From positions 3,899,501 to 3,963,500 of the forward strand of contig NC_011420.2 in assembly GCF_000016185.1 (NCBI RefSeq): a DNA stretch of 64,000 bases, read 5' to 3'. The position numbers and the translations under genes were made by a program. This document shows positions 36,143 through 54,760 of the stretch, piece by piece (the first letter of the stretch is position 1; each line of letters opens with the position of its first letter). The notes under the pieces are model-generated. The model did not search any database and was not told where the DNA came from. It worked only from the letters and a program-made list of their open reading frames with translations. This DNA comes from Rhodospirillum centenum SW. Its GTDB lineage: Bacteria; Pseudomonadota; Alphaproteobacteria; Azospirillales; Azospirillaceae.

Positions 36143-37387
36143 ATGACCGGACTCCCCGCCGACAGTGCCGACCCGATCCTGCAGGCCGACGCCTGGCGCC
36201 GGATCGTCCCCGCCGAGGAGACGGTGGCGCGGCTGAAGCGCTTTCTGCCGATGTTCGGGATCACCCGTGTTGCCACCCTGACCGGGCTGGACACGGTCGG
36301 CATCCCGGTGGTGATGGTGAACCGGCCCAACTCGCGCTCCCTCGCCGTATCCCAGGGCAAGGGGGTGACGCTCGCGGCGGCCAAGGCGTCCGGCCTCATG
36401 GAATCCGTCGAGGCGTGGCACGCCGAGCGGATCGTGCAGCCGCTGAAGATCGGCTCCTTCGAGGATCTCTGCTACTCCCACGCGATGGTGGACCCCGACC
36501 GGCTGCCGCGCCTCAGCAGCAGCCGCTACACGCCCCATACCCAGATGCTCTGGATCGAGGGGCGCAGCCTGACCCGTGACCGCAGCGTCTGGGTCCCCTA
36601 TGAGATGGTCCACACCAACTACACGCTGCCGCTGCCGTCGGGCCATGGCTGCTTCCAGGCCAATACCAACGGCCTCGCCTCCGGCAACCACCCGCTGGAA
36701 GCGGTCATCCACGGCCTCTGCGAACTGATCGAGCGGGACGCCCTGACGCTCTGGCACCAGAAGCCGGAGGAGGCGCAGGACGAGGACCGCCTGGATCTGG
36801 AAACGGTGGCCGATCCGGTCTGCCGCGACCTGATCGGCCGGTTCGCCCGCGCCGGGGTCGAGGTCGGCGTCTGGGAGATCACCTCCGACATCGGCGTGCC
36901 GACCTTCCTGTGCCGCATCGTGCAGGCCGAGGGGGAGCACGCCACCGGGATCCGGCCGGCGATCGGCTGCGGCACCCATCTGGTGCGCGAGATCGCCCTG
37001 GCCCGGGCCCTGACCGAAGCGGCGCAGAGCCGGCTGACCTTCATCTCCGGCGCCCGCGACGACATGGCCCGGGTCGATTACGAACGGATGCTGGATCCTG
37101 CCCTCCAGCGCACCTGGCTGGCCCGCATCCGCCATGGCGCACCGATGCGCGACTTCAATGCGGTGCCGGTCTGGGGCGGGCGCTCCCTGCGGAACGACCT
37201 GGACGCGCTGCTGGCACGGCTGGACCGCGCCGGGATCGAGGAGCCGGTCGTCGTCGATCTGACCCGGCGCGAGCTGGGCATCCCCGTGGTCCGGGTGCTG
37301 GCGCCCGGGCTGGAGGGGGTGGACAGCTCGCCCGACTATGTCCTGGGCGCCCGCGGCCGCGCGGCCGCCGGGTACCGCCCACACTGA
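36143..37387 (+). CDS. YcaO-domain RiPP-modifying enzyme
   Basis: A 414-residue YcaO-domain ATPase. The ATP/Mg motifs are MESVEAWHAER (residues 86-96) and CELIERDALTLW (193-204), with later RALTEAAQSRL as the third motif. The C-terminus ends GYRPH and lacks the PxPxP ending of azoline-forming YcaO enzymes, which agrees with a TfuA-partnered type. YcaO with TfuA is linked to thioamidation of peptides and to trifolitoxin. The ATG at 36143 is chosen from CGGAG; a longer frame extends back to 35978 through the C tract but would overlap the precursor gene. Confidence 0.88.
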   Translation: MTGLPADSADPILQADAWRRIVPAEETVARLKRFLPMFGITRVATLTGLDTVGIPVVMVNRPNSRSLAVSQGKGVTLAAAKASGLMESVEAWHAERIVQPLKIGSFEDLCYSHAMVDPDRLPRLSSSRYTPHTQMLWIEGRSLTRDRSVWVPYEMVHTNYTLPLPSGHGCFQANTNGLASGNHPLEAVIHGLCELIERDALTLWHQKPEEAQDEDRLDLETVADPVCRDLIGRFARAGVEVGVWEITSDIGVPTFLCRIVQAEGEHATGIRPAIGCGTHLVREIALARALTEAAQSRLTFISGARDDMARVDYERMLDPALQRTWLARIRHGAPMRDFNAVPVWGGRSLRNDLDALLARLDRAGIEEPVVVDLTRRELGIPVVRVLAPGLEGVDSSPDYVLGARGRAAAGYRPH

Positions 37388-37433
37388 TCCGGCCCGCACC
37401 GGGACAGACACGCTCCGAAAGGGAGGACCGACC

Positions 37434-38177
37434 ATGTCCGACGCCATCGTCTTCCTCGGCCCCACGCTCGCCCTGGCCGATGCCCGCGAGATCCTGGCAG
37501 CGGACTACCGCCCGCCGGTCGCCCAGGGCGACGTGCTGCGGGCGGTGATGGACGGGGCGCGGGCGATCGGCATCGTGGACGGTTTCTTCGAGAACGTGCC
37601 GTCGGTCTGGCACAAGGAGATTCTGTTCGCCCTGACCAAGGGCGTGCAGGTCTACGGCAGCGCCAGCATGGGGGCGTTGCGGGCGGCGGAGCTGCACCCC
37701 TTCGGCATGCACGGCGTCGGCGCCGTGTTCGAAGCCTTCGCCGACAGCCGGCTGGAGGACGATGACGAGGTCGCGGTGACGCACGGCCCGGCGGAGATCG
37801 GGTATCCCATCCTGTCGGAAGCCATGGTGAACATCCGCCGCACCCTGTCCGATGCCTTCGGCCGCGGCATCATCGGCACGGGCACCCGGCGCCACCTGGA
37901 AGCCATGGCCAAGGCCCTGCCCTACAAGGAACGGACCTACGCCCGCCTGTTCCGCGATGCGGCCACCGCCGGCGTGAACCGGGCCGAGGTCGAGGCGCTG
38001 CGCGCGTGGCTGCCCACGGGCCGCGCCGACCAGAAGCGGGAGGATGCGGTCGCCATGCTGCGCACCATGCGCGCGGCGCTGGAGCGGCCCTGGACCCCGG
38101 CCACGGTCCTCTTCCCGTTCGAGCACACGACCCTGTTCGAGCGGGCCGCGCGGCCGATCCTGGGTGCAGCCGCATGA
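37434..38177 (+). CDS. TfuA-like protein
   Basis: A 247-residue protein with the TfuA core: IVFLGPTLALADAREIL at the N-terminus, then YRPPVAQGDVLRAV, IGIVDGFFENVPSVWHKEILFALTKGVQVYGSASMGALRAAEL and GVGAVFEAF. TfuA proteins accompany YcaO enzymes and are thought to assist thioamide formation. GGGAGG lies seven bases before the ATG. It follows ycaO by 46 bases and precedes the Crp-family gene, supporting one operon. Confidence 0.9.
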   Translation: MSDAIVFLGPTLALADAREILAADYRPPVAQGDVLRAVMDGARAIGIVDGFFENVPSVWHKEILFALTKGVQVYGSASMGALRAAELHPFGMHGVGAVFEAFADSRLEDDDEVAVTHGPAEIGYPILSEAMVNIRRTLSDAFGRGIIGTGTRRHLEAMAKALPYKERTYARLFRDAATAGVNRAEVEALRAWLPTGRADQKREDAVAMLRTMRAALERPWTPATVLFPFEHTTLFERAARPILGAAA

Positions 38178-40847: not shown

Positions 40848-41792
40848 CTAATAATCGACCAGATAGCCCACCAGCTTCGGCCCCAGCTCGTCGGTCAGGC
40901 GGCGGGGCAGACGGCGCCAGACCTGCTGCGCCAGCATGTAGCGGGTCTGGAGCAGGCGGCCGGCCCCGACCAGCCGGAGGGGAACCGGCACCGCCCCCCA
41001 CTTGCGCTTGAAGCGGAAGGTGCCCCCGCCCATGGGCGAGCGGCCGAGATCGACCGTGCGCACCCTGTCCACCAGACACTCGCAGAGCAGGTGCCAGATC
41101 AGCAGGTCGCCCGGCGCCTCCGCCGCGGCGCGCCGGTCGGTGGCGATCCAGGGCACCCAGCGCAGATCGCCGTCCGGCACGACGACCATGCCGGCCAGAT
41201 CATGGCCGGCGGCCTCCGCCAGCAGAATCTCCGCCCGCGTCTCCCGCACCAGCGTCTGCACCAGGGTCGGCGGCAGCATCGGCGCGCCATGGCGGGCCAG
41301 CGTGCCGGCCAGCAGCACGGTGAAACGGCGGACCATCTCGGGATCGCGCCCCTGCTGCACCTGGATGCCCGCCTTCTCGGCCCGGCGGACCCGGTTGCGG
41401 CAGACCGGGGGGATCAGGTGGCTCCACAGCGTATCGGCATCCACCCCGACAAGCGAGGCGCGCAGCGTGACCGGGTCACCGACGGACGGCGGCGGGGCAT
41501 CGGGGTCCAGCACACGGATCAGGTGGCGCCGCGGCCCCGCCTCCTGGGCCAGCCGTTCCGCCGCCGCCGGGGTCATGTCGGTGTAACTGAGGAACGGCAG
41601 GTAGGACAGCACGCGGCCGCCGGTCAGGGCCGGCACGGTCAGGAAGGCCCCGTCCTGCTCCCAGCCGAACTCGGCCGCCACCACCTCGCGCCACAGCGCG
41701 CACAGGCCGGGGCTGAGCGGCCGCGGATCGATCGGGGCCATAGCCATCGGAGCCCGGCCGGAGAAGGGAAACGCCGCAGGGTTTTCCACCAT
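40848..41792 (-). CDS. GNAT/FemAB-like acyltransferase
   Basis: A 314-residue protein matching the BioF2/FemAB-like acetyltransferase pattern: CRNRVRRAEKAGIQVQQGRD in the middle, then AAGHDLAGMVVVPDGD, WIATDRRA, LLIWHLLCECLVDRVRTVDLGRSPMGGGTFRFKRKWGAVPVPL. Such enzymes transfer acyl or aminoacyl groups and also occur in polysaccharide loci. It converges on the ABC gene with 22 bases between them, so its link to the RiPP cluster is uncertain. ATG 41792 is the longest start; ATG 41747 is possible. Confidence 0.7.
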   Translation of the reverse strand: MVENPAAFPFSGRAPMAMAPIDPRPLSPGLCALWREVVAAEFGWEQDGAFLTVPALTGGRVLSYLPFLSYTDMTPAAAERLAQEAGPRRHLIRVLDPDAPPPSVGDPVTLRASLVGVDADTLWSHLIPPVCRNRVRRAEKAGIQVQQGRDPEMVRRFTVLLAGTLARHGAPMLPPTLVQTLVRETRAEILLAEAAGHDLAGMVVVPDGDLRWVPWIATDRRAAAEAPGDLLIWHLLCECLVDRVRTVDLGRSPMGGGTFRFKRKWGAVPVPLRLVGAGRLLQTRYMLAQQVWRRLPRRLTDELGPKLVGYLVDY

Positions 41793-49477: not shown

Positions 49478-50455
49478 ATGCAGGATGCCGACCCGGACCC
49501 CGCGCCAGATCCCGCGACGGACCCCGCGACGGCGGCGCTGCCGCCCGAGGACATGCCCTGGCCGTTCGATACGGACGGCTTCCGGATCGGCATGGGCCTG
49601 CGCCATCTGGACCCGGCAGACTGGATCCGCCTCGACGCGACCTGGCCGGACCTGCTGGCGGAACGGCGGCATCTGCTCCGCGAGCGGGGGGCGGAGGTTC
49701 TGCTGGCACCGTCCGGGACGGAGGTCGCGGCGCGGGACCTGCTGCACCGGCTCGCGTCGCATCTGCCGGCCCGTTTTCCGTCCCTCTACGCCCGTGACGG
49801 CCGGATGCTGCTGAACCGGCTGACCGGCGAATCCCTGGACGTCTCCGAGGCGCCGCCGCTGGAGACGGCCTGCCTGCTGGTGCCGGAGGACCTGTGCCTG
49901 CTGCGGCGGGAGGCCGGGGCATGGCGGCTGGCCGCCGGCATCGTCTGCTTCCCGAACCGTTGGCGGCTGGCGGAAAAGGCGGGGCGCGGCCTGCCCGGCA
50001 TCCACGAGCCCGTGCCGGGCTATACCGAGCGGCTGGCGATACCGGTGGACCGTTTCTTCGACACGCTGGCGCCGGGGCGCGGCGTCTGGCGGACGAACTG
50101 GAGCCTGAACGACGACCCGGCCCTGTTCCAGCCCGGGGAGACGGCCCATCTGCCGGCGGATGCCGGGATCACCGCGGCGACGGCGGGGGACCGTCTGCTG
50201 CTGCGGGTGGAGCGGCAGACCCTGCTGGCCCTGCCGGAGAGCGGTGCCGTCGTCTTCGGCATCCGCACCTACCAGCGGCCGCTCTCCCGGCTGTCGCCGG
50301 CCCAGGCCCGACAGTTCGCGGCGGTGCTGCGCGACGTGCCGGAGGACAGCGCCCGCTACAAGGGACTGCTGCGGACGCGGGAACCGGCGCTGGCCGTGCT
50401 CGACCGACGCGCCGCCGGAGAGGAGATCAGTCCTCCAGCGTCTCGAAGCGGCTGA
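49478..50455 (+). CDS. DUF3445 (heme-dependent N-demethylase-like) protein
   Basis: A 325-residue protein with the DUF3445 pattern: PFDTDGFRIGMGLRHLDPADWI at the start of the domain, LLHRLASHLPARFPSLY, LVPEDLCLLRR, ACLLVPEDL and GIVCFPNRWRLAEKAGRGLPGIHEPVPGY, then TNWSLNDDPALF and RTYQRPLSRL. The family includes heme-dependent oxidative N-demethylases. The N-terminal 20 residues are Asp/Pro/Ala repeats. It overlaps the end of the convergent replication initiator gene by 29 bases. Confidence 0.8.
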   Translation: MQDADPDPAPDPATDPATAALPPEDMPWPFDTDGFRIGMGLRHLDPADWIRLDATWPDLLAERRHLLRERGAEVLLAPSGTEVAARDLLHRLASHLPARFPSLYARDGRMLLNRLTGESLDVSEAPPLETACLLVPEDLCLLRREAGAWRLAAGIVCFPNRWRLAEKAGRGLPGIHEPVPGYTERLAIPVDRFFDTLAPGRGVWRTNWSLNDDPALFQPGETAHLPADAGITAATAGDRLLLRVERQTLLALPESGAVVFGIRTYQRPLSRLSPAQARQFAAVLRDVPEDSARYKGLLRTREPALAVLDRRAAGEEISPPASRSG

Positions 50456-51335
50456 CGTCGTATTCGCGCCAGCGGTCGATGCGCCAGAACACGACCATGA
50501 TCTTCTTGAGCTGGGTGCGCTGGCCCTTGGTCCCGCCCTCGGAATTCGGGTCGTTGATCAGCTTGAAGCCGTATTCGGGCAGGGGGCTTTTCTTCTCGGC
50601 GATCTTGGCCAGCTTGTAGCGGAACTGGCGCAGGTCGGTCTCCGCACCCACGCGCAGCCGCAGCTTCTCCAGATTGATCTTGAAGCCCGGCTGGTTGCCG
50701 CAATGGGCGCGCGCCATCTCATAGAGGCGCTTCTCCAGCGGCGGCAGGTCGAAATAGGCCGGATCGTAGGTCAGCATCCGGTTGTCCTTGAGGATGGCGC
50801 GGTAGAGCCAGTCGCACAGCTCCACCGTGATCCGCTTCAGGACGCGCTCGCCCTTGGTGTTCTTGCGGTATTCCGCCTTGGCCGACTTCAGCCAGCTGAA
50901 CCACTCGTCGGTGCCTTCGCCGCCCGTCTCGATGTTGGTCTTGATCTGCGTACCTTGCAGCCGCTCCAACGCCCCGGAGATGCGGTCGTAGGACTTGCCC
51001 CCGGCGGACACGCGGCAGACCCGGAAGAAATCGTGCCCGGAGAAGCTGAAGACCTGGCTCACCGGCTCGCCGCGGTTCATCTTGTCGACCATCAGCGAGG
51101 CGATGTAGATCAGGAATTCCTTGTCGTAGATGGTGGCGATGCCGGCATCCGTGCCCTTCACCTCGATCGTGACCTTGCCGTCCTGATAGCGGATCGGATC
51201 CAGCCGCTTCTCCTTCGTGAGCGCGAAGAAGTTGTAGACCATGATCGAGCGTTCATTCTTGACGCTGCCGATCAGCGGGCTGTCGAGGAGGGAAAGCTGA
51301 TGCGCCTCTTCGATGGTCTTCATCATGTCACCCAT
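50427..51335 (-). CDS. RPA-family plasmid-type replication initiator
   Basis: A 302-residue protein matching replication initiator protein A (RPA, PF10134): ERSIMVYNFFALTKEKR, VTIEVKGTDAGIATIYDKEFLIYIASLMVDKMNRGE, YDRISGALERLQGTQIKTNIETGGEG, CDWLYRAILKDNRMLTYDPAYFDLPPLEKRLYEMARAHCGNQPGFKINLEKLRLRVG and a C-terminal helix-turn-helix-like part. Such proteins start replication of iteron plasmids and of some alphaproteobacterial chromids. About ten 18-bp iterons lie just upstream, as expected. The chain is complete. Lys/Ile/Tyr content is higher than in its neighbours, hinting at a different origin. Confidence 0.85.
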   Translation of the reverse strand: MGDMMKTIEEAHQLSLLDSPLIGSVKNERSIMVYNFFALTKEKRLDPIRYQDGKVTIEVKGTDAGIATIYDKEFLIYIASLMVDKMNRGEPVSQVFSFSGHDFFRVCRVSAGGKSYDRISGALERLQGTQIKTNIETGGEGTDEWFSWLKSAKAEYRKNTKGERVLKRITVELCDWLYRAILKDNRMLTYDPAYFDLPPLEKRLYEMARAHCGNQPGFKINLEKLRLRVGAETDLRQFRYKLAKIAEKKSPLPEYGFKLINDPNSEGGTKGQRTQLKKIMVVFWRIDRWREYDVSRFETLED

Positions 51336-51412
51336 CCAACGACTCTGCGGTTTTCATCAGGGTCGGCACCCAGGGACGACGGTCCGGGGGACGACGGGGC
51401 CACCTGCCCCCC

Positions 51413-52136
51413 GTCACCGAAACAACGAACGGAATGGACGGCAGGCGGATGCTCGGTCCGGGAAATTTGGGTCGAGACGTTCGGGGCTGTCCACAAGCGA
51501 TTGTGCGAACGTCACCGAAACAACGAAGATTTGGTGGTCAGACCCCTCCGGGACCGCCAGCACCGGGCCGGAATCTCGTTGTTTCAGTGACATGGACACG
51601 GGGGAACGGCGACCCGGCTTCGTTGGAACGGTGACAGGGCCGGGAATCCGCGGGGTCGGGGCGTTCGTTGGTTCGGCGACGCGGAATCCGGGATCGTTGG
51701 ATGGGGCACGCCAGCCCGTTGCTTCGGGCACCCGAACTCGGAGTTACGGACACGCCGGTTCGCTGTTTCAGCGACCCCCGCTCGCGGTTTGGGCGACGCA
51801 AATCGCCGTAGGCTCTTGATTCCAGAAACGGATTCCGGCCCGTAACTGGAAAACCCTGTAACTCCCTAACGGAATCTAACAGGCTCAACACGTCGCGCCT
51901 CCGCACGCTTGACAGGGTTTCAGCGGTTCCAGACCGGCACGGGACACCGGGGCAGGGATCCCTGCCAGAAGGATGACCGGGAAAGCGCCGGAGGCTCCGG
52001 GGTTCAACGACTCGGGCGGAAGTGACTGCGACTCGGGGCAACATGCCTGCCCCGGAGAGGGATGTCACCGAAACCACGAATCCCTATCGGAACGGAAGAG
52101 AATGGGGCCGGAGGGAATGTCACTGAAACCTCGAAC
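51413..52136. repeat. iteron array (candidate replication origin)
   Basis: An 18-bp repeat close to GTCACCGAAACAACGAAC recurs. Forward copies: 51413, 51511, 52064, 52119. Inverted copies: 51574-51591, 51618-51635 (GTCACCGTTCCAACGAAG), 51663-51680 (GTCGCCGAACCAACGAAC), 51758-51775 (GTCGCTGAAACAGCGAAC), and a weaker one at 51780-51797. A DnaA-box-like CTGTCCACA is at 51487 and an A/T-richer stretch at about 51815-51890. The 830-base gap has no gene I can support. Confidence 0.8.
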
Positions 52137-52165
52137 CGGGCCGGGACAGAAGGGGAGGGGAGAGG

Positions 52166-53146
52166 TCAAGGGCGGACAAGATGGAACCGCTGTTCACCCA
52201 GAGCATCACGCAGGAAGGCGACCGCCGGATCGATGCGATCCAGGGGAATCGGATCATGGCCGGCCAGAAGCATGGGCAGAAGCGCCGGGCGGACGCCGAG
52301 AACGTCGACCAGGGCCGGCCCCAGCCCGAGACGGTGGATCTCCGCCATCAGGGGTCCGGAGCTGGAGCCATCGACGAAAACGGCTCCTTCCCGCCGTTGA
52401 AGAACCAGGGTAACCACCTCGGGAACCGGATGCCGGTCAGCAACGGCGGGAGCCGGGTGAGGCGGGTGAGTGACCGGCAACCGGGGGGGCAGAACGGGCT
52501 GTTGAGCCGGGGTTTCCGCAGCGGCGCTGAAATCCGGAAGATCGGGCGCCCGTTGATGAAGCGCCAGGGAAAGGCTTCTGACCTCGCCCAGAAGCGCATC
52601 CAGCGCTGGCCAGTCTGGCTGGGCGCGGGCGGACACCAGATCCTGCTCCATGCGGTCAAGACCGGAGAGCCAGGACTCCAGAACATAACGGGTACCCAAC
52701 GGCAAGGGCTCATGCTTGCGTTCCAGCAGACGCAGAAGCGGAGCAGCACTTTCGAGATGAAGTCTCGCCAGACGCCGCCGGAGCAGATCAAGCTGTTCGT
52801 CGGCATTGCGCCGCTTGCGGGGGTCCAGCCCCTCCGCATGGGTAGCGATGACCGCGATGAAGAACTCAACCTCCTCGAAAAGGGGGCGCAGTCCTTTGAA
52901 GCGGTGCAAGGCCAGAAAGTGCGATTCAGGCAGGTCGGGGTCGAGACGGACTTCGCCGGCCAGTCCACCTTCCAGATCGGCAAGCATGCCATGGAGGCGT
53001 TTCAGATCATCGAGCAGCCGACGGTAGAGGGCGCGGGGAGAAACCTGACGCCTCTCCTGCCGCGCCGCCCGGCCCCCTGTGGCCAGCCGGGCCGATTGCA
53101 CGTCGAACCGGGGGCGTCGCCCTCCTGAGAACGAATCGGCGTTCAT
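52166..53146 (-). CDS. unrecognised protein upstream of the replication initiator
   Basis: A 326-residue, helix-rich protein with no recognised family. Residues about 30-200 are charged helices (RALYRRLLDDLKRLHGMLADLEGGLAG, FLALHRFKGLRPLFEEVEFFIAVIATHAEGLDPRKRRN), then a Pro-rich linker and a C-terminal alpha/beta part (VVTLVLQRREGAVFVDGSSSG). Start is uncertain; ATG 53146 has no strong ribosome site. It is codirectional with the initiator, with the iterons between. A frame on the opposite strand (52181-53128) is judged a shadow. It could be a replication or partition accessory protein, but this is speculation. Confidence 0.55.
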   Translation of the reverse strand: MNADSFSGGRRPRFDVQSARLATGGRAARQERRQVSPRALYRRLLDDLKRLHGMLADLEGGLAGEVRLDPDLPESHFLALHRFKGLRPLFEEVEFFIAVIATHAEGLDPRKRRNADEQLDLLRRRLARLHLESAAPLLRLLERKHEPLPLGTRYVLESWLSGLDRMEQDLVSARAQPDWPALDALLGEVRSLSLALHQRAPDLPDFSAAAETPAQQPVLPPRLPVTHPPHPAPAVADRHPVPEVVTLVLQRREGAVFVDGSSSGPLMAEIHRLGLGPALVDVLGVRPALLPMLLAGHDPIPLDRIDPAVAFLRDALGEQRFHLVRP

Positions 53147-53788
53147 GACGACATTGGACCGTGACGGTCGCGTGGGTGTCAACGGGCCGTTCCAGAGGCG
53201 CTGGCAGGCCCTGACCTGGTTCGGGAACGCCTGACTGCCAGGGGCGGAGGGGGAACGGAGACGCAGCCGGGAAGCACGCCATCAAGGCGGCGAATCCTTG
53301 TCGGGGCAGGGGGTCCTAGGTTCTGGATTCAGGGTCCAGAAATCCGCCCGGAATCCTTGTCCTGCGGCCATTTCAGGGGCTCCGGAGGGGATCCGCGGGC
53401 TTGGCCGCCGTGTCCCCGTTCCAACGTCGGCCGGATGGCGAACGTCACCGAAACAACGTCCCCGCCTCTCTGCTGAGTCGCTCCCCCCAGCCCCGCTGCG
53501 GGTTTCAGGGGCGGCCCTCGCCGTCGGTTCGGTGGATCAGGGACATTGGCGGCCAGGTCCCCGTGTCGATCGGATCACTGTCGCCGTGCGGGAGAGGTAA
53601 CCGCTTCCCCGGCCGGCGCACACCGGCAGGCCCGGATGTGGGAGAACCGGCTGCCGCTGATCCGGCCCGCCTGCCACGGTGTTCATGGGACAGTCTCAAC
53701 CGCCAGCCTCGTGGCAGAAGGGGCCTCCGGCAAACGGGGGAACGGCCGCGACAAGGCAGGCACCGGGCAGGGAAGGGCGGGCGGCATC
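53147..53788. other. 642-base gene-free region with two more iteron-like sites
   Basis: Holds a forward iteron at 53444-53461 (GTCACCGAAACAACGTCC) and a variant at 53412-53429 (GTCCCCGTTCCAACGTCG). No open frame here looks like a protein; the short frames are GC-rich shadows. The region may be part of the replicon control area or promoter of the sugar gene downstream. Confidence 0.6.
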
Positions 53789-54760
53789 ATGAAGCGCATC
53801 CTCGTGACCGGAGGGGCCGGTTTCATCGGCTCCCATCTGTGCGAGTATTTGCTGGAATCAGGAAACGAAGTCCTGTGTGTGGATAACTATTTCACCGGGT
53901 CGAAACGGAACATCGAGCACCTGCGCGACTGCCCCCGTTTCGAGGTGCTGCGCCATGACGTGACCATTCCGCTCTATGTCGAGGTGGACGAGATCTACAA
54001 TCTCGCCTGCCCGGCCTCTCCGGTCCACTACCAGCACGATCCCGTGCAGACGACGAAGACCTCGGTCCACGGCGCCATCAACATGCTGGGCCTCGCCAAA
54101 CGGCTGAAGGCGCGCATCCTCCAGGCTTCCACGTCCGAGGTCTACGGTGACCCGGAGGAACACCCGCAGCGGGAGGAATACTGGGGCAACGTCAATCCGA
54201 TCGGGCCGCGGGCCTGCTACGACGAGGGCAAGCGCTGCGCGGAAACCCTGTTCTTCGACTACCACCGCCAGCACGGGGTGCCGATCAAGGTCATCCGCAT
54301 CTTCAACACCTACGGGCCGCGCATGCACCCGGACGATGGCCGCGTCGTCTCCAACTTCATCGTGCAGGCGCTCAAGGGCGATCCTATCACCATCTACGGC
54401 GACGGTTCACAGACCCGCTCCTTCTGCTATGTGGACGATCTCGTCCGCGGGATGGTCCGCTTCATGGAAACGCCGGAGGCGGAGCCCGGGCCTGTCAATC
54501 TCGGCAACCCCGGTGAGTTCACCATCCTGGAACTGGCGGAGACGGTGCTGCGTCTGACCGGATCGGCATCGCCCATCGTCTTCCGTCCGTTGCCGCAGGA
54601 TGATCCCCGCCGCCGCCGGCCCGATATCGGCCGGGCGGATGCGCTGTTCGGCTGGCGGCCGGGCGTGCCGCTGGCGACAGGGCTGGAACGGACCATCGAC
54701 CATTTCCGGAACGTGCTCGGCCATCATCCTGTGCACTGCCTTGCGGCGGCCGCGGATTGA
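53789..54760 (+). CDS. UDP-glucuronate decarboxylase (UDP-xylose synthase)
   Basis: A 323-residue extended SDR. It begins [23 protein letters not shown] (NAD motif), then [69 protein letters not shown], the active-site YDEGKRCAE (Tyr/Lys) and [22 protein letters not shown]. These are the UXS family hallmarks. It decarboxylates UDP-glucuronate to UDP-xylose for surface polysaccharide. Upstream frame extends to 53546 but lacks similarity; GGAAGGG lies before ATG 53789. Confidence 0.93.

Follow-up and report, generated by a model that had tools for sequence, protein, structure and literature searches.

A plasmid-type origin locus in the single chromosome of Rhodospirillum centenum points to a probable chromid merger

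Why should a bacterial chromosome deposited as a single circle carry a plasmid-type replication origin? The question is raised by a locus of Rhodospirillum centenum SW, which lies in a 64,000-nucleotide stretch (the window) spanning 3,899,501-3,963,500 of the single 4,355,543-bp contig NC_011420.2. There, a gene for an RPA-family replication initiator adjoins an array of iteron-like repeats. The genome paper describes one circle with no plasmids and no strong GC-skew inflection, and an assembly scaffolded with a 28-47 kb fosmid library (PMC2890560). An earlier, sequence-only reading had proposed that the window lies on a chromid or plasmid, or that a replicon has merged into the chromosome. 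The first option is at odds with the deposit as part of one chromosome contig; the second is favoured by our analysis of codon-based and fourfold A/T polarity. We consider it probable that an ancestral chromid of ~1.06 Mb merged into the main chromosome with its origin kept, and that the locus corresponds to the origin region of that replicon (ori2) or to a part of it.

The initiator gene is intact (Table 1), as had been claimed. Its product matched PF10134 with an E value of 7.7e-59 and 199.5 bits (curated Pfam cut-off 27), covering positions 1-226 of the 228 in the profile, and was the sole PF10134 match of the whole genome; a weaker Pfam match in the same protein was to Rep3_N WH1 (E 2.3e-6). 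Pairwise comparison with three close homologues gave nonsynonymous divergence (dN) of 0.046-0.051 and synonymous divergence (dS) of 0.58-0.61, with purifying selection in 6 of 6 pairs and the window copy evolving no faster. The predicted structure, of moderate confidence (predicted local distance difference test, pLDDT, 69.9), had domains 2-3 of RctB as its closest fold in a structure search (E 1.1e-10; template modelling score 0.53-0.56 by query), followed by RepE54 (E 7e-6 and weaker) and Pi (E 4.3e-3). RctB of Vibrio chromosome 2, RepE of F and Pi of R6K thus resemble the system described here in predicted fold and in having an iteron-type origin; they differ in sequence, with 12-16% identity to the initiator, which had no match in the PDB sequence set up to E 1. 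On this evidence the initiator belongs to the RPA family and not to the RctB family, and its modelled likeness to RctB appears to be one of fold only. RepC had no match in this genome or in that of the relative Indioceanicola profundi. A search for Rep3_N found none in this genome and one in I. profundi, on a 296-kb replicon; that search is insensitive, as it also missed the RPA genes of both genomes.

Upstream of the initiator gene, we counted sites resembling a 16-bp core over 51336-53789, that is, up to the next clear gene, and compared them with 60 first-order Markov shuffles. At up to 2, 3, 4 and 5 mismatches there were 6, 9, 11 and 16 sites; shuffle means were 0, 0.05, 0.2 and 1.8 (maxima 0, 1, 2 and 6), and the remaining 61.5 kb of the window held 0, 0, 3 and 31. 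The inverted copy over the initiator start codon straddles the edge of the counted stretch and is additional to these numbers. The strongest feature is a run of five copies starting at 51694, 51716, 51738, 51760 and 51782, an exact 22-bp phasing, although each differs from the core by 3 to 5 mismatches. Direct repeats in helical phase therefore stand beside an initiator gene. The repeats had been described as about ten copies of an 18-bp unit in both orientations; both orientations occur and the number is far above chance, but a 16-bp core phased at 22 bp is the better description, and outliers extend to 53459. A conserved block, which we liken to a DnaA box although it departs from the consensus at two positions, and an A/T-richer stretch with repeated GTTA complete the locus, much as the sequence-only reading had them. 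Both features are conserved in four genera, and together they correspond to the DnaA box and A/T-rich opening element of an iteron origin. Between 50 and 54 kb, GC content per 2 kb was 0.63-0.66. By its sequence, the locus is built to work like an iteron-type origin, at which the initiator is predicted to bind and replication to start.

The same origin occurs in relatives, and in one of them on a separate molecule. Among 59 genomes searched, including the source genome, 26 had a match to the RPA protein, and initiators 92-93% identical were found in three other genera: I. profundi, Oleisolibacter albus and the Rhodospirillaceae metagenome-assembled genome (MAG) bin98. All three carry core-like repeats upstream of the initiator. 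When the four origins were aligned, 103 of 176 iteron columns were invariant compared with 61 of 330 outside the recognized elements (Table 1 gives the DnaA-box-like block and the GTTA stretch). The I. profundi homologue, 93.4% identical, is on NZ_CP030127.1 (here C2), a separate circle of 1,184,037 bp, and 33-51 kb of the window is collinear with it. Of seven 16S genes found in I. profundi, four are on C2, which by its content is therefore a chromid rather than a plasmid, although it was deposited as 'plasmid unnamed1'. We found no second match to the RPA protein and no RepC on C2, so RPA, as the only initiator found there, likely drives its replication. More broadly, RPA chromids and plasmids of Azospirillaceae share the initiator (identity 93.4% in I. 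profundi, where origin DNA is conserved too, and 43.2% in Azospirillum sp. B510, NC_013855.1) and differ in being separate, whereas here the locus sits within the single main chromosome.

We then asked how replication polarity runs along the chromosome, using the window together with 81 stretches of 20 kb (1.684 Mb in all), with genes called by codon usage after training on 53 conserved open reading frames (ORFs). The codon polarity measure was trained on the main arms, each stretch being left out when scored, and its sign was correct in 53 of the 59 main-arm stretches. A two-state fit returned the same six switches at penalties of 5, 7 and 10 (0.216, 0.503, 1.249, 2.921, 3.798 and 3.904 Mb) and twelve at a penalty of 3. 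Two of the six are the main origin (ori1) and terminus (ter1, 1.249 Mb); the other four outline a block of ~1.06 Mb that runs from 3.798 Mb through zero to 0.503 Mb, with an origin-like switch of its own at 3.904 Mb and a terminus-like switch at 0.216 Mb. As a control, the ori1 switch at 2.921 Mb lies close to parS sites at 2.891 and 2.894 Mb and ParB at 2.8956 Mb, an error of ~28 kb. Within the block, 3.82-3.8995 Mb scored -5.8 (interval -7.8 to -3.9) and 0.27-0.506 Mb scored -4.2 (-5.9 to -2.4); among equal gene runs drawn from the training arms, 0 of 498 in rightward arms and 0 of 445, respectively, were as low.

Coding-strand-corrected fourfold A/T skew agreed with the codon fit and placed the origin-like switch nearer to the locus, at or just right of it. 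It was negative at 2.88-3.80 Mb, +0.207 (0.123 to 0.290) at 3.83-3.8995 Mb, +0.003 (-0.297 to 0.269) in window 1-11 kb, +0.151 (0.066 to 0.226) at 11-51 kb and +0.038 (-0.103 to 0.173) at 51-64 kb, then -0.071 (-0.159 to 0.023) at 3.99-4.15 Mb, the 3.95-4.15 Mb samples not excluding zero. Beyond these came -0.082 (-0.136 to -0.026) at 4.15-0.15 Mb, +0.089 (0.016 to 0.159) at 0.15-0.535 Mb, -0.163 at 0.535-1.22 Mb and +0.123 at 1.22-2.88 Mb. A third measure of polarity was the KOPS-type motif GGGNAGGG: its counts were rightward (43 to 15) in samples from 3.9475 to 4.340 Mb and leftward (11 to 36) at 0.216-0.506 Mb, and disagreed with the other measures left of the locus. The codon switch at 3.904 Mb falls between a parAB pair (3.882 Mb) and the initiator (3.950 Mb), and polarity alone places the origin only within 3.88-3.96 Mb. 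Arm lengths are consistent with a merger. With ori1 at parS (2.893 Mb) and ter1 at 1.249 Mb the arms measure 2.71 and 1.64 Mb, and removal of the block leaves 1.65 and 1.64 Mb; the rightward distance between ori2 (3.95 Mb) and ter1 is likewise 1.65 Mb.

GC skew was tried as a guide to replication and rejected, being about zero in two long main-arm stretches and without consistent sign elsewhere. Strand-corrected fourfold values had intervals including zero in 6 of 6 segments of 0.535-2.88 Mb, and were +0.028 at 2.88-3.22 Mb, -0.048 at 3.22-3.55 Mb, -0.026 at 3.55-3.88 Mb and -0.033 at 4.15-0.15 Mb. Those of 3.22-3.88 Mb fit leftward forks from ori2; the 4.15-0.15 Mb value does not fit, and the measure was therefore left unused. 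The absence of a skew change, which had been suggested as a refutation, cannot serve as one here given this inconsistency; the cumulative GC skew of the samples does have its minimum within the window.

The content of the block bears on its source. The parAB pair, 66 kb from the initiator locus, is of plasmid type and gives the block a second partition system; its ParA is 79% and its ParB 58-60% identical to those of pairs that adjoin RPA genes in three relatives, all of one genus. Reciprocal hits to C2 fell in the block in 41 of 60 cases, although it holds 387 of the 1,492 sampled genes (2 of 82 rotations reach that), and 12 of 21 block stretches had such hits compared with 11 of 61 elsewhere (p 0.0014). 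Hits are biased towards C2 throughout, because 648 kb of it was sampled as against only 240 kb of the main chromosome of I. profundi. Correspondence to a separate replicon is clear for the locus and its flanks; for the whole block it takes the form of enrichment only. Genes at 0.168-0.218 Mb match C2 at 647-656 and 732-737 kb, in what GGGNAGGG counts suggest is the C2 terminus region. The block is poor in tRNAs (3 in 464 kb, one doubtful, versus 22 in 1,220 kb elsewhere). In a plasmid collection, queried with one 8-kb piece from each of three block and three other stretches (6 of the 81), the best five matches listed included an Azospirillaceae replicon for all three block pieces and none of the others, a weak contrast given that Azospirillum records were among the matches of at least two of the three non-block pieces. 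Two dif patterns had no match in 3 and 4 genomes.

One event, the merger of a chromid, would account for the origin parts, the parAB pair, the additional switches and the balance of what remains. In the main chromosome, which it would have joined, the chromid would now reach from ~3.80 Mb past zero to 0.50 Mb and would have kept ori2, its parAB pair, a terminus-like point at ~0.22 Mb and its own replication-strand bias. At ori2, the RPA protein would bind the phased iterons, DnaA would probably assist at the neighbouring box and the GTTA stretch would open; the inverted copy over the start codon, a probable autoregulatory operator, would probably enable the initiator to repress itself.

Several observations pull the other way. 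The samples cover 38.7% of the genome, and the block limits were set after the polarity data had been seen. The codon switch is 46 kb from the initiator, with 3.8995-3.950 Mb ambiguous, and GGGNAGGG numbers 16 forward to 7 reverse in the 3.834-3.950 Mb samples, where a leftward arm was expected. Without the window and its two neighbours, C2 hits in the block drop to 20 of 39 (9 of 79 rotations reach that) and stretches to 9 of 18 versus 11 of 61 (p 0.012); at 55% identity or more, this subset gives 16 of 31 hits and 6 of 18 versus 8 of 61 stretches (Fisher p 0.075). Hits to the I. profundi main chromosome were not significantly rarer in the block (5 of 37). On C2 itself, the GGGNAGGG switch is at ~90-118 kb, by parAB (94-96 kb) and not the RPA gene (49 kb), the A/T skew has no switch at 49 kb, being low and level across 49-95 kb (-0.006), and its parAB differs in type from the R. 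centenum pair.

Whether ori2 still fires is a separate matter from the merger. Polarity at 0.27-0.506 Mb is at full strength, though a joined molecule should copy this stretch in the other direction; the join would therefore be recent, reversible or an assembly error, and for the same reason an intact origin is no proof that ori2 fires. The locus may well be a silent relic in a merged chromid, with ori1 copying everything, a reading to which we give somewhat less than an even chance: GGGNAGGG polarity is rightward across the locus, and with a recent join conservation tells little about present use. Set against this are an initiator frame that is open and, by the divergence values above, constrained, iterons and a DnaA-like block that are intact, outer arms that use of ori2 would equalize (1.65 and 1.64 Mb), and the fused chromosomes of Agrobacterium, in which both origins are reported to stay active (PMC12153318). 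Tentatively, this could be one natural chromosome replicated each cycle from two unrelated origins, DnaA/parABS and RPA-iteron, ~1.06 Mb apart, whose outer arms reach the terminus equidistantly; the fusion would have been overlooked since GC skew is uninformative in this genome, the map of the old replicon surviving in codon-level A/T bias.

It is rather unlikely that there are still two replicons of ~3.3 and 1.06 Mb, or a genome flipping between joined and split forms, of which the deposited circle is a misassembly or a snapshot. The leftward polarity of 0.27-0.506 Mb shows no decay (-4.2 versus -3.8 in the main leftward arm), where forks should cross it rightward in any permanently joined molecule; in Rhizobium NGR234, fusion and splitting reportedly occur spontaneously (PMC12153318), and short reads can overlook the difference between joined and split forms (PMC8729776). 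A recent true fusion accounts for the same data, however, and the genome paper's one circle, lack of plasmids and 28-47 kb fosmid scaffold speak against two molecules (PMC2890560). Improbable as well is the absence of any merger, with two inversions or rearrangements flipping polarity and the RPA locus a small plasmid insertion near one breakpoint: 19 of 60 reciprocal C2 hits do lie outside the block and very little inter-replicon synteny is reported for Azospirillum species (PMC3245306), but this needs a coincidence of an origin-like switch near the locus, a chromid-type parAB nearby, a terminus-like switch at 0.216 Mb where C2 terminus-region genes sit, and main arms that balance once the block is removed.

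Whether two origins can stably serve one bacterial chromosome is under active study, mostly in Vibrio and Agrobacterium. The fusions of Vibrio, Agrobacterium, Sinorhizobium and Cupriavidus involve other initiator families. Natural chromosome-chromid fusions are described for Cupriavidus necator KK10, Vibrio cholerae, Agrobacterium tumefaciens and Sinorhizobium meliloti; they resemble the present case in that a secondary replicon joined into one molecule, and KK10 has extra skew peaks (PMC8729776, PMC12153318). They differ in lineage, and GC skew is no indicator in R. centenum. Balanced arm sizes are named as enabling the survival of fused Agrobacterium chromosomes (PMC12153318). In the openly licensed literature we found no description of a fusion in this species or family and no pulsed-field work on R. 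centenum. If the merged chromid is real, this phototroph, a harmless laboratory model, would combine an apparently natural fusion with a second, plasmid-type origin that is intact, and so extend such studies to a different initiator family; the merger would also help to account for the missing strong GC-skew inflection of the genome paper, and 'single chromosome, no plasmids' may conceal a merged or misjoined replicon.

Table 1. Features of the origin locus, in window coordinates.
Feature	Position	Strand	Remarks
RPA-family replication initiator, intact	50427..51335	-	302 aa, PF10134
Inverted iteron-like copy over initiator start codon	51327..51342	+	3 mismatches
Exact core copy, opposite orientation, between initiator and array	51413..51428	+	
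DnaA-box-like block	51488..51504	-	15/17 columns invariant in four genera
Exact core copy, opposite orientation, adjoining DnaA-box-like block	51511..51526	+	
Iteron array, eight same-orientation 16-bp core copies	51576..51797	-	1 to 5 mismatches; kept in four genera
Phased part of array, last five copies	51694-51797	-	22-bp spacing
A/T-richer stretch, repeated GTTA; probable unwinding element	51843..51880	-	16/38 columns invariant vs 61/330 elsewhere
Outlying core copies	52064..52134	+	52064-52079 (1 mismatch), 52119-52134 (3 mismatches)
Protein upstream of array, no Pfam or NCBIfam family	52166..53182	-	338 aa
Outlying core copy	53444..53459	+	1 mismatch

The 338-aa protein encoded upstream of the array has a homologue in the same place in MAG bin98 (35% identical over 316 aa); nothing matched it at E 1e-5 in the stretches compared from I. 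profundi and O. albus. The codon-usage gene caller preferred an antisense ORF here, 52181-53125 (+), which has no homologue in the compared loci and no Pfam family. Searching the window against Rfam at gathering scores gave no match. ARAGORN called a tRNA-Sec at 40962-41048, which is doubtful because it lies inside a GNAT acetyltransferase gene (40851-41741) on the same strand, and is probably false.

The origin had been placed amid flagellar and metabolic genes, and rightly so. Window 876-27516 carries flagellar hook-type and FlgK genes, two flagellins, a Maf-type glycosyltransferase, NeuB and sugar-nucleotide genes, and is probably a flagellin glycosylation neighbourhood. At 36143-38174 there is a YcaO-TfuA gene pair, with reciprocal matches near the same locus in I. 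profundi, which may modify a peptide or protein backbone.

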